Assembly: GCA_945861245.1 (NCBI GenBank)
Contig: CAMAUE010000028.1
Location: 1 to 45,920, forward strand
Reading direction: 5' to 3'
Source of the DNA: Singulisphaera sp. GP187
GTDB lineage: Bacteria; Planctomycetota; Planctomycetia; Gemmatales; Gemmataceae
Length of the DNA stretch: 45,920 nucleotides
Each line of letters begins with the position of its first letter. The first letter of the stretch is position 1. The position numbers were made by a program, and so were the translations under genes. A model generated the notes under the pieces. The model did not search any database. It was not told the origin of the DNA and saw only the letters and a list, made by a program, of their open reading frames with translations. Of this stretch, positions 18,174 to 23,598 are shown in pieces.

Positions 18174-19504
18174 GCACGCCCACCATCGCCATCGTTTCGG
18201 ATCATGAAACCGCTGGCGGGGCTGCGGTGGCGACTCGTCGCATCGAAGCGTCGCTTCGCCTGGGCATGCCGGATTGGCGGATCGCTCGCATCGCATTCTT
18301 TGGCGATGACCAGGAACGCGAATTGGGCCATCGGCACATCCTGCAACCTTGCGAGTCGCCGCTGGCAATGCAACTGATGCGACTGCCGCGCAAGCTCATG
18401 CCGAGCCGATTTCCCCGACCGGCGTCGCCTGCGTTTGCCGAGCGAAGTTTGAAACAGGCCCTCAGCGAAATTCGACCGGACGTCATCCAGTTGAACAATG
18501 TGCATGGCGCGGCCGATTGGGGCTGGGGATCGTGGATGGTCGAAACGTGCTTGCAGTTCGCACCGGTCGTGTGGACGTTGCACGATATGTGGAGTTTTAC
18601 AGGCCGATGTGCGTATGCCTACGACTGCGAGAGATTCGTGGCGGGCTGCGATGCGACCTGTCCGACGGCCAACGAGTATCCACGTCTCGCGCTGGAGCAA
18701 ATCGGCCCGGCCTGGCGCGAAAGGCGCACGCTGTATGCACGACATCGACAGCGTTTGACGATCGTAATGCCCTCACGCTGGTTGGCGTCGCAAGCGCGGC
18801 GCGGGTTATTCGCCGAGCACCGGATCGACGTGATCCCGTATGGCGTGCCTGCGGCGGACCAGATTCCGCGACGCGAGGCGAGAATGGCGCTCGGGTTGGC
18901 GGCCGATGGTCCGGTGCTGCTGTTGGCGGCCGTCGATCTGAGGGAACGCCGCAAGGGTGCTGACATCCTGCGTGAGCTTTGGTTGAACAAGCCGCATCGC
19001 CCGCTGACGTTGCTGACGATGGGTTCCGGTGTCGTGCCTGTCGCCGATTCCCCGATTCGCGTGCATTCGCTGGGCTACGTCGCAGATGACCGGACCAAGA
19101 CGCTAGCCTACGCCGCGGCCGATGCCCTGTTGCATCCGGCGCCGGTCGATAACCTTCCCAACACGGTGTTGGAAGCGATGGCCAGCGGCACGCCGACGAT
19201 CGCTTTGCCCATCGGCGGGTTGCCGGAACTCGTCAGCCCGGGCGTCACGGGTTGGCTTGCCGAGCGAGCGACAAGCGATGGGCTAAGCGAAGCCGTTGGC
19301 GCGGCACTGCGGGCGATTGAGTTCGGGCTGGACCTGCGCGAGTCATGTCGCGCGGTTGCGATGGCGGAGTATTCGCTGCGATTGCAAGGCGAGCGGTATC
19401 GCGCGTTGATTGACGAGATGTACCCGTTTAGCCGCTCGCCTTTGGCGAGCGCGACTCAAGCGTCGTGCGTCACCCGTTCGCGCTCGCCAAAGGCGAACGG
19501 CTAA
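18170..19504 (+). CDS. GT4-family glycosyltransferase with a repeat-derived C-terminus
   Basis: A 444-aa GT-B glycosyltransferase starting at GTG 18170 within the previous stop (GTGA overlap). The N-terminal acceptor domain opens with VSDHETAGGAAVATRRI and has VWTLHDMWSFTGRCAYAYDC, a pattern seen in WcaC-like colanic acid-type enzymes. The C-terminal donor domain has PAPVDNLPNTVLEAMASGTP with the family's conserved Glu, then GGLPELV and GVTGWL. It transfers a sugar from a nucleotide donor, probably to a surface glycan on the cytoplasmic side. The last 26 residues (from about 419) are encoded by the palindrome at 19426-19506 and are rich in Ser and Arg, so the native terminus has been replaced. 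Confidence 0.87.
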   Translation: MSTPTIAIVSDHETAGGAAVATRRIEASLRLGMPDWRIARIAFFGDDQERELGHRHILQPCESPLAMQLMRLPRKLMPSRFPRPASPAFAERSLKQALSEIRPDVIQLNNVHGAADWGWGSWMVETCLQFAPVVWTLHDMWSFTGRCAYAYDCERFVAGCDATCPTANEYPRLALEQIGPAWRERRTLYARHRQRLTIVMPSRWLASQARRGLFAEHRIDVIPYGVPAADQIPRREARMALGLAADGPVLLLAAVDLRERRKGADILRELWLNKPHRPLTLLTMGSGVVPVADSPIRVHSLGYVADDRTKTLAYAAADALLHPAPVDNLPNTVLEAMASGTPTIALPIGGLPELVSPGVTGWLAERATSDGLSEAVGAALRAIEFGLDLRESCRAVAMAEYSLRLQGERYRALIDEMYPFSRSPLASATQASCVTRSRSPKANG

Positions 19505-19506
19505 AC
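19426..19506. repeat. 29-bp palindrome inside a coding 3' end
   Basis: Arms 19426-19454 and 19478-19506 pair with one mismatch. The subtype GTTTAGCCGCTCGCCTTTGG also occurs at 21604-21688, and as a half copy near 31330-31355. The stop codon of the glycosyltransferase lies within its right arm. Confidence 0.9.
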
Positions 19507-20285: not shown

Positions 20286-21593
<1,308 letters not shown>

Positions 21594-21603
21594 TCGTCGC
21601 AAT

Positions 21604-21688
21604 TTGTTTAGCCGCTCGCCTTTGGCGAGCGCGGACGTGTCGTCGTGCGGCACACGTCCGCGCTCGCCAGAGTCGATCGGCTAAACAA
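21604..21688. repeat. 37-bp palindrome after clpX
   Basis: Arms 21604-21640 and 21652-21688 pair with three mismatches around an 11-nt loop. It begins 10 nt after the clpX stop and is the longest-armed palindrome in the window. Same subtype as 19426-19506. It probably ends or stabilises the clpX transcript and insulates the riboswitch promoter that follows. Confidence 0.9.
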
Positions 21689-21717
21689 TTTATTCACATC
21701 ACGTTACGTCAATCGAT

Positions 21718-21746
21718 TTGACTTTTATCTCCCTTTCGTGTAAGAT
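21718..21746 (+). promoter_or_regulatory. Sigma70-type promoter for the riboswitch operon
   Basis: TTGACT at 21718-21723 and TAAGAT at 21741-21746 are spaced by 17 bp, the best promoter match in the window. Transcription would start near 21753, just before the riboswitch. Confidence 0.7.
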
Positions 21747-21754
21747 GCCATTCA

Positions 21755-21886
21755 GCAGCCAAATTCGGTTCCGCAGGGGATCGATACGGGGGACCCAATG
21801 AGGATTGGTTCGCCAATTCTCCGGGGCGCAGGTCGCAAGACCGGGGCACTTTCAAGCTCTAGCCCGTCAGCTAACCTCGTCGGCAA
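21755..21886 (+). ncRNA. c-di-AMP riboswitch (ydaO/yuaA type) candidate
   Basis: The 3' part contains CCCGTCAGCTAACCTCGT (21863-21880) followed by CGGC, which matches the hallmark end of ydaO-type riboswitches. The 5' part has AGCC..AATTCGG, then GGGGGACCCA (21788-21797) and a GGGGCG segment (21823-21828), as in the conserved core. These RNAs bind cyclic di-AMP and usually turn expression off. A segment inside the aptamer, 21844-21853, is perfectly complementary to 21937-21946 downstream, a candidate alternative helix. A further hairpin (CCGGAG/CTCCGG, 21889-21904) follows. No T-run is seen, so control may act on translation or through the long-range pairing. Confidence 0.8.
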
Positions 21887-22074
21887 GTCCGGAGCGTTCT
21901 CCGGGCGGGTTGAAAGGGCCACCTATCCAACACACGGAAAGTGCCCACGTTTCGTTCGCGTTCCACGTGCCTGATGACATTGGCGAATTGATCGGGATCC
22001 ATTCCTGGCGAATTCACCTACGCGCATCGATCCACGTACAGTCGCGCATGAGCATTTCGTAACGAGGTGATGCC

Positions 22075-22350
22075 ATGACGTTCACCACACGTCTCGGTTT
22101 GTTCCTGACCATCGCCATTGCCGGGCTTATCGCCTGGCAGTGGAACGCGGCCCTGGACGGGTCGCACGATGTCACGCAACTCGCGGTTCGCCAATTCCAC
22201 AACGACGCCGCAGTCCCAGGCCAACTTGCCCAAGCCTCGCTGGCCCAGCAATGGTGGCCCCTCGCCTGGCCGTTGGTGCTGGCGATGCTCGGAGCCGTCA
22301 TGTTCTGGGATGACCTGGTTCGGCTCTGGAAGATGCGCGAGTCGGCGTAA
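22075..22350 (+). CDS. Small two-helix membrane protein under riboswitch control
   Basis: A 91-aa protein with two hydrophobic helices (about 5-24 and 60-80), WNAALDG after the first and a short basic tail. I do not recognise a family. GAGGTGAT lies just upstream of the ATG. It is the first gene after the c-di-AMP riboswitch candidate, with about 190 nt of leader in between, and is followed 111 bp later by the SPFH gene in the same direction. By position it may partner the SPFH protein in the membrane. Confidence 0.65.
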   Translation: MTFTTRLGLFLTIAIAGLIAWQWNAALDGSHDVTQLAVRQFHNDAAVPGQLAQASLAQQWWPLAWPLVLAMLGAVMFWDDLVRLWKMRESA

Positions 22351-22386
22351 ACGAATTCAAAACCATAACTCAATTCATTCGTCTCG

Positions 22387-22442
22387 GTCGCCTGCGGCCT
22401 TGCGCTCGACGCATCACGCGCGAGCGCTAAGCCGCAAGCGGC
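22387..22442. repeat. 22-bp degenerate palindrome, AGCGCTAAGCCGC type
   Basis: Arms 22387-22408 and 22421-22442 pair with a few mismatches. It lies between the two riboswitch-operon genes, 19 nt before the SPFH start codon, and may lower downstream expression or protect the transcript. Confidence 0.8.
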
Positions 22443-22461
22443 GGAAAAAAAGGGGAAACCT

Positions 22462-23598
22462 ATGCAACGCAATCTCATCACCGCCGCCGTCGCCGTGCCT
22501 GTCGCCGTTTTTAGCTTGGTGCTGGCGGTCGTGCTATTTGTTCGCCCGTATGACGTGCCGGAGTTTGTCGAAGTGGACACCAGCGAGTCGGCATTTTTGA
22601 TTCCGCTCGAGGGCGACACCTCAAACCAGGCCGCGTTTCAGTCGGTGAAGTTCCTGGAAGAAAAAAAAGTCGCCACCAAGCGTGTGCAGATCACGCATCG
22701 CTGGCAGCAGATGGGCTACCTGCCGAACAGTGGCCAATATGTCGCCACGGTTCGGCTTGTCAAAGTCGATCGCCGACCGATCACGCGGGAATGGACGCGC
22801 TCCGCGAAATCGGGCACTTCGTCCAAGGACCAGGCGATTGCCACCGAATCGAAAGACAGCGTGAACTTCCACATGGGCATCAGCTGCACCGCGTTCATTC
22901 CCGAGGAGTCAGCGGCGGTGTACCTTTACAGCTATCCGTCGAAGAGCCTGGCCGAGATGCTCGACATGGAAGTGCGCGCCCGCATCCACCAGATCATCGC
23001 CGAGGAAGCGGGCAAGTACAACCTGTTCGACCTGCCGACGAAAAAGAACGACATCATGAAAGCGGTGCGCGACGATGTGACGCTGTTCTTCAAAAAGAAA
23101 GGCATCGAGATCACCACGCTGGCCATGCTCGGCGGCTTGAATTTTGAGAACCCCGAAATCCAACGGGTGATCGACGACGCCGCCAAAGCCGCTCAACTCA
23201 AAGTGGCGGCGGAGGCGAAACGGGCGGCGCAGGAAGTTGAGAACAAGACGCTGTTGCTCGCCGCCGACGGTAAAGCCTTGGCCGGCAAGCGTGAAGCGGA
23301 AGGTAAAGTCGAAGTCGAAATTGTGCGCATCGAAGGCGAGGCGAAGATTCGTCTGCGCGAAGCCGAAGCTCAAGGCGAGGCGCTGAAGACGACGGCGGAT
23401 GCCAAAGCGTATGAGGCGCAGAAAGCCGCCGAGAATGGCGAAACCTACATCCGACTCCGCTTGCTCGAATCGGAGTTACTGCGCTGGCGGCAGTGGGATG
23501 GCCGCTACCCGCAGTACGTCGTGCAGATGGGCGGCGCGACGCCCGGCGCCATCATGCTGCCGCCGATGCCCGCGCCAATGACGGTCGGGGTGAAGTAG
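22462..23598 (+). CDS. SPFH/Band 7 domain membrane protein
   Basis: A 378-aa protein with an N-terminal membrane helix (about 6-28, VAVPVAVFSLVLAVVLFV), an SPFH core at about 35-240 and a long Ala/Glu/Lys-rich coiled coil at about 235-335 (repeated AxxEAKRAAQEVE and EGEAKIRLREAEAQGE patterns), typical of prohibitin/flotillin/HflC-like scaffolds. These form large ring assemblies that organise membrane domains and control proteases. The C-terminus ends in a Pro/Met-rich tail (LPPMPAPM). A purine-rich GGGGAAA precedes the ATG. It is probably on the riboswitch-led transcript, so its level may respond to c-di-AMP. Confidence 0.82.
   Translation: MQRNLITAAVAVPVAVFSLVLAVVLFVRPYDVPEFVEVDTSESAFLIPLEGDTSNQAAFQSVKFLEEKKVATKRVQITHRWQQMGYLPNSGQYVATVRLVKVDRRPITREWTRSAKSGTSSKDQAIATESKDSVNFHMGISCTAFIPEESAAVYLYSYPSKSLAEMLDMEVRARIHQIIAEEAGKYNLFDLPTKKNDIMKAVRDDVTLFFKKKGIEITTLAMLGGLNFENPEIQRVIDDAAKAAQLKVAAEAKRAAQEVENKTLLLAADGKALAGKREAEGKVEVEIVRIEGEAKIRLREAEAQGEALKTTADAKAYEAQKAAENGETYIRLRLLESELLRWRQWDGRYPQYVVQMGGATPGAIMLPPMPAPMTVGVK

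Follow-up and report, generated by a model that had tools for sequence, protein, structure and literature searches.

A putative lengthened c-di-AMP riboswitch with its own promoter upstream of an SPFH protein gene in a planctomycete

The window analyzed here, a 45,920-nucleotide stretch of Singulisphaera sp. GP187 DNA, appears to encode a lengthened variant of the ydaO-class c-di-AMP riboswitch, which has its own promoter and probably controls at least two genes, those of a 91-amino-acid membrane-type peptide and of an SPFH protein (estimated probability approximately 0.82). The riboswitch is flanked by a clpX-like gene, which ends at 21593, and the gene of a 91-amino-acid protein, and the leader is approximately 320 nt long. 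The two genes behind the riboswitch likely form one operon. The features of this region, all on the + strand, are listed below.

21718-21746, +: promoter-like site TTGACT, 17 nt, TAAGAT (9 of 12 matches, 0.3 expected)
21747-21901, +: aptamer as matched by Rfam RF00379 (50.7 bits); the real element ends at approximately 21916
21844-21859, +: P6 hairpin, 21844-21847 with 21856-21859, loop 21848-21855 (Rfam alignment)
21844-21853, +: 5′ arm of the candidate switch helix, GGGCACTTTC (P6 5′ strand plus loop)
21849-21855, +: pseudoknot 5′ strand CTTTCAA in the P6 loop (pairing tests, 60 leaders)
21863-21880, +: conserved hallmark CCCGTCAGCTAACCTCGT (sequence and RF00379 alignment)
21887-21906, +: inserted hairpin, here named P8, GTCCGGAG-CGTT-CTCCGGGC (8 bp, compensatory changes)
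21910-21916, +: pseudoknot 3′ strand, TTGAAAG, lying beyond the Rfam match
21916-21946, +: possible local hairpin P9, GGGC(C)AC 21916-21922 with GTGCCC 21941-21946 (competes for the 3′ arm of the candidate switch helix)
21937-21946, +: 3′ arm of the candidate switch helix, GAAAGTGCCC (sequence)
22053-22069, +: possible hairpin CATTTCG-TAA-CGAGGTG over the Shine-Dalgarno-like GAGGTG at 22064-22069
22075-22350, +: first gene after the riboswitch, encoding a 91-amino-acid protein in which hydrophobic stretches are seen by eye
22462-23598, +: SPFH/Band_7 protein (SPFH-A), 378 amino acids (PF01145, 33.1 bits, cut-off 23.6)

The covariance model RF00379 (ydaO, c-di-AMP riboswitch) matches 21747-21901 on the + strand with 50.7 bits (cut-off 38, E 5.7e-9), and this is the sole above-cut-off Rfam match of the whole window. 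The alignment spans model positions 1-134 and includes both the hallmark strand and P6, the latter being paired in 97.1% of cells with a compensatory change in three of its four pairs (60 long-form leaders). The initial annotation had proposed a c-di-AMP riboswitch, and the above-threshold match and the hallmark bear this out; by its sequence, the leader is a convincing match to this class.

The riboswitch lies in a 5′ leader that is predicted to be under its own promoter, and the evidence supports this arrangement. The promoter with 17-bp spacing that had been claimed before was recovered as TTGACT-17-TAAGAT, the single promoter-like site in 21580-22480 when both strands were scanned (0.3 expected). 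A -10-like hexamer scoring at least 4.5 is located within 20 nt before the P1 strand in 59 of 70 long-form leaders, versus 3 of 70 when a control stretch shifted upstream by 40 nt is scored; these counts omit the 17 of 87 long leaders whose P1 start could not be placed or whose available DNA ended too close to it. Between the clpX-like gene and the promoter (21596-21697), there is also a near-perfect palindrome of approximately 85 nt with a DNA fold z of -10.0. This palindrome is a dispersed repeat with 80 matches, mostly on both strands per place and hence in at least approximately 40 places (40 scored of 380 candidates), and a second copy lies in the window at 19426-19506. It may be MITE- or REP-like, judging by resemblance alone.

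Relatives of the leader were gathered by RF00379 matches in 22 of 99 relatives, 25 of 95 genomes of the family, 84 of 397 genomes of the class (82 over the family cut-off), and 41 of 170 genomes of another family in the class; there is overlap among these sets, and the genome of the window is itself counted in the first three. Including extra fetched stretches and pattern matches, the pool consists of 122 distinct leaders, namely 87 long, 33 short, and 2 other, where the tail strand follows the start of the hallmark by 44-72 nt in the long form and by 22-29 nt in the short form. Inspected by eye, one of the 33 short leaders (L022) belongs to the long form, the script having picked the wrong strand. 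Sixty of the 87 long leaders make up the alignment (A2) used for the pairing statistics.

In the long form, the hairpin P8 is inserted after the P1 3′ strand and before the pseudoknot 3′ strand, and adds about 22-29 nt. Each of its 8 scored pairs shows a compensatory change, 82.6% of cells are paired over the 60 leaders, and its probability in ViennaRNA folds of the window is 0.93-1.0. The 7-bp pseudoknot between the P6 loop and the tail strand is paired in 96.2% of cells over the 60 long leaders, compared with 90.0% for shuffled and 20.5-65.5% for slid controls, and in 95.1% versus 88.1% for shuffled when the 13 rows from the pattern search are left out; since the tail strand was placed by best complement, these percentages are inflated, and the covariation at columns 13/89 (UA 47, GC 6, AU 5) is less affected. 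Four of the seven pairs show a compensatory change. Own partners pair at -6.77 kcal/mol versus -4.83 kcal/mol for permuted partners, and none of 5000 permutations was as good. These sequence comparisons show both the loop-to-tail pseudoknot and the extra hairpin before its tail strand.

Ending inside P8, the Rfam match does not reach the pseudoknot strand (21910-21916), and judging by spacing the same applies to the other long-form leaders, so that the expression platform would be sought from the wrong starting point. The initial annotation recognized the riboswitch and overlooked both the pseudoknot strand and the inserted hairpin. Within P8, the loop (A2 columns 59-65) is non-random, since 52 of 60 leaders have G at column 62 and 59 of 60 have T or G at column 63, a pattern that a contact of the loop would explain. 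The known ydaO/yuaA leader (RF00379; a 108-nt RNA, PDB 4QLM/4QLN) shares with the window the aptamer core, the hallmark, and the loop-to-tail pseudoknot. The crystallized RNA is described as having a pseudoknot (PMC5393176), and its loop CUCCUUC and 3′ tail GAAGGAG are complementary, a strand assignment that we read off the sequence given in that source. In contrast to the RF00379 consensus, which has no insertion, the window has the extra hairpin between the P1 3′ strand and the pseudoknot strand.

A long-form pattern that left the covarying bases unconstrained was searched against a collection with one genome per species (84,980 species) and matched 55 stretches, of which 54 have record titles naming planctomycete taxa. 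The longer form was accordingly met only in planctomycetes, a statement that holds for the pattern used, since it would miss long forms whose loop sequence differs. The genes behind the two forms differ as well. By best tblastn match, the genes after the 87 long leaders comprise 65 SPFH genes (57 SPFH-B, one more of the SPFH-B cluster, six SPFH-A, and one distant SPFH-A relative) and 17 permeases, with none found in 5 cases, whereas those after the 33 short leaders comprise 31 non-SPFH genes, nearly all transporter-like, and one SPFH gene (L022), with none found in one case. With L022 reassigned to the long form, SPFH genes follow 66 of 83 long versus 0 of 31 short leaders among the assigned loci. 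This split may stem from common descent and not from function alone. The short-form targets include TrkH and Kup K+ transporters and AA_permease_2 proteins (Pfam for representatives, tblastn for the others). Short-form riboswitches lie before TrkH and Kup genes at L070, L083, and L166 and L082, L092, and L093 (L070 and L082 by Pfam, the others by tblastn).

Searches of Pfam and NCBIfam gave no match for the 91-amino-acid protein encoded directly behind the riboswitch in the window, and related small proteins are encoded in four other SPFH-A loci, with one seen by eye in L016. Among PDB sequences, the SPFH-A protein has a weak match to QmcA (E 0.018). The SPFH-A gene was found in 6 of 102 genomes of the order and has the aptamer upstream in all six, and the SPFH-B gene was found in 22 of the 102 genomes, in 14 behind an aptamer and in 8 without one there. 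An Rfam search of nine loci from these eight genomes returned only MIR399, a plant miRNA, below cut-off and on both strands of one stretch (L206). Elsewhere in the window's own genome (6.04 Mb, 289 contigs), a permease-like gene is preceded by a second aptamer (57.5 bits). As this genome has one match to the predicted diadenylate cyclase domain (PF02457, 74.5 bits), the c-di-AMP ligand is presumably made in the organism. The protein concerned (L003:1018-2001) is the only one in the genome with such a domain match, and its best NCBIfam model is DacZ (archaeal-type), with 131.9 bits and below the cut-off of 430.

The initial annotation further proposed a possible long-range switch helix between GGGCACTTTC at 21844-21853 and GAAAGTGCCC at 21937-21946. 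The 10-bp complementarity is indeed exact, and the helix covers the P6 5′ strand and the pseudoknot loop, so its formation would break the aptamer as had been stated. Complements of at least 10 bp between the aptamer and the downstream region arose in 50 of 2000 shuffles (2.5%), and the match is therefore uncommon but not beyond chance by itself. In ViennaRNA folds, which leave out the pseudoknot, the helix probability is 0.75-0.80 for 21747-21950 and 0.93-0.99 for 21747-22000, falls to 0.41-0.44 for 21747-22080 (P6 0.40-0.41, P9 0.23-0.51), and is only 0.02-0.03 for 21843-22080.

Comparison with the relatives gave a divided result for this helix. Four of the six SPFH-A leaders have complements better than dinucleotide shuffles (L002, p 0.001; L016, 0.003; L025, 0.002; L026, 0.002), whereas L017 and L009 do not (p 0.21 and 0.36), and L026 is nearly identical to L002. 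Perfect complements of at least 9 bp occur in three long leaders, all of them SPFH-A (L002, L026, and L016; 0.04 expected), and L025 retains one of 8 bp. Among the other 81 long leaders, 10 have a helix with p < 0.05, where approximately 4 are expected. All six SPFH-A leaders have an identical P6 5′ arm, so that covariation cannot appear there and conservation alone is visible. Across the class, contrasts of 43 pairs of near relatives with different P6 strands gave 24 better, 16 worse, and 3 equal (p 0.55), although one such pair (L007/L008) had changed on both sides of the helix. A class-wide helix of this type was also tried by permutation of 47 representatives (-10.51 versus -9.83 kcal/mol, 0.12% of 5000 as good) and was rejected: this result is discounted because relatedness confounds it, and the 43 contrasts were negative. 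The complementarity is real in the sequence, and four of the six SPFH-A leaders have better complements than shuffles, whereas class-wide covariation is not seen and the action of the helix as a switch is unproven. With the failed contrasts on one side and the support from four of six SPFH-A leaders on the other, we hold the helix to be a possible branch-specific switch.

Several readings of the leader have to be weighed. The aptamer could have decayed and been retained by chance upstream of SPFH genes, and the 50.7 bits of the window are lower than those of most listed relatives, but the core motifs are present and the element precedes the SPFH-A gene in every one of the six genomes having it, which represent three genera; we consider decay very improbable. 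For the 3′ arm, one account is that c-di-AMP toggles the leader between the aptamer with its pseudoknot and the 10-bp helix, which would then be the core of the expression platform. The exact complement, the high probabilities in the two shorter folds from 21747, and the SPFH-A complements favor this account, the near-even odds against P6 plus P9 in the fold to 22080 would suit a two-state switch, and the pair L007/L008 agrees with it; the near-identity of L026 and L002, the failures of L017 and L009, the invariant 5′ arm, the negative contrasts, the low excess among the other long leaders, and the near-absence of the helix in the fold of 21843-22080 speak against it and leave it doubtful, if possible. 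Alternatively, GTGCCC at 21941-21946 may be the 3′ side of P9, and its match to P6 may be a by-product of the similarity between GGGGCAC and GGGC(C)AC. GGGC follows the pseudoknot strand in 51-55 of the 60 aligned long leaders per base, GCCC or GTGCCC is seen by eye further downstream in many leaders, and GGGCAC...GTGCCC is present in L061 and L062, whose P6 strand does not match GTGCCC. P9 reaches a probability of 0.44-0.97 in the fold of 21843-22080, in addition to its 0.23-0.51 in that of 21747-22080, but does not exceed 0.06 in the folds of 21747-21950 and 21747-22000, and forcing it in 21841-21950 costs 8.2 kcal/mol relative to the 10-bp helix, with the pseudoknot uncounted. Own versus permuted partners of P9 gave p 0.28, and 9 of 87 leaders beat shuffles at p 0.05. 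P9 is therefore attractive by eye in many leaders and statistically weak, and we regard the by-product account as possible and tentative.

Two other pairings in the leader were considered and set aside. A downstream hairpin hiding the pseudoknot 3′ strand (GAAAGG with CCTTTC, by eye in L015 and L016) reached p < 0.05 in 3 of 87 leaders, and a 7-bp match seen by eye between ACCTCGT of the hallmark (21874-21880) and the Shine-Dalgarno-like ACGAGGT (22062-22068) is not claimed, since any GAGG fits CCTC. The block directly after the pseudoknot, GTGCCCACGTT, is conserved in the SPFH-A leaders L002, L017, and L025 (with a small insertion in L026 and partly in L016), and exceeds what either the 10-bp helix or the local hairpin accounts for.

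A pattern scan found no terminator-like site in the leader, in agreement with the initial annotation, and the one such site detected (22077-22093; 1.0 expected) sits inside the gene. The accompanying suggestion that the mechanism may differ from known examples brings nothing new on this count, because terminator-less members are already described in passages of PMC9960051. With no intrinsic terminator found, the output most likely acts through translation initiation or Rho-dependent termination, and we give translation initiation about an even chance. Control of transcription by Rho in place of translation would suit the terminator-less leader of approximately 320 nt and the three matches to the Rho RNA-binding domain in the genome, but a terminator-less relative from S. 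coelicolor is described as Rho-independent in the same source (PMC9960051), and we consider Rho unlikely here. The C. glutamicum nlpC riboswitch resembles the window leader in that it is reported to have no canonical terminator and a likely translational control, while its target is a cell-wall peptidase, unlike the SPFH protein (PMC9960051). The B. thuringiensis kdpFABC riboswitch is of the same class and shares the link to K+ homeostasis with the short-form relatives (TrkH, Kup), but is reported to use an intrinsic terminator (PMC6488665), which was not found in the window leader by the pattern scan.

The distance from the pseudoknot strand to the start codon is 57-77 nt in six compact relatives (L007, L014, L016, L017, L020, and L030), which suits translation control, whereas it is 158 nt in the window, 126 nt in L025, 235 nt in L026, and 300 nt in L009, and the far longer distance in the window makes a direct translational link less convincing. 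The longest distances, in L026 and L009, suggest that the far leader is without a strict length constraint. Inverted repeats of the CAGGCTTTC...GAAAGCCTG type are seen by eye in both of these leaders, in the part that separates the pseudoknot strand from the start codon. In the window, the possible hairpin over the Shine-Dalgarno-like bases is seen when 21947-22100 is folded and is missing when 22040-22090 is folded. By eye, a short hairpin of the GCACC...GGTGC type lies over the bases that precede the start codon in L020, L031, L033, L034, L036, and L038, is altered yet pairing in L035, and is missing in L022 and L024.

In the studied members of the class, c-di-AMP binding is reported to lower expression (PMC6488665, PMC9960051, PMC10117811). 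By analogy, we infer ligand-driven switching of this type for the window leader, in which c-di-AMP binding would stabilize P6 together with the pseudoknot (21849-21855 paired to 21910-21916) and would lower expression. When the ligand is absent, the strand containing GTGCCC may, doubtfully, invade P6 and its loop in the SPFH-A leaders to form the 10-bp helix. A wider proposal, in which GTGCCC would swap in SPFH-A leaders between P6, with the aptamer disrupted, and the local hairpin, with the aptamer and pseudoknot preserved, and the inserted-helix subclass of planctomycetes would be an SPFH switch working by terminator-less strand exchange, is speculative and unlikely as a whole.

None of the papers searched joins c-di-AMP with SPFH proteins. 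For ydaO with planctomycetes, the passages of the sources searched did not connect the two, and an earlier mention of the inserted helix is possible. Planctomycetes are a phylum noted for unusual membranes. If the preferred reading of a lengthened c-di-AMP riboswitch controlling the SPFH protein is true, planctomycete c-di-AMP would govern SPFH membrane proteins in addition to K+ and amino-acid transporters, and the riboswitch would provide a genetic handle on the role of c-di-AMP in Planctomycetes.
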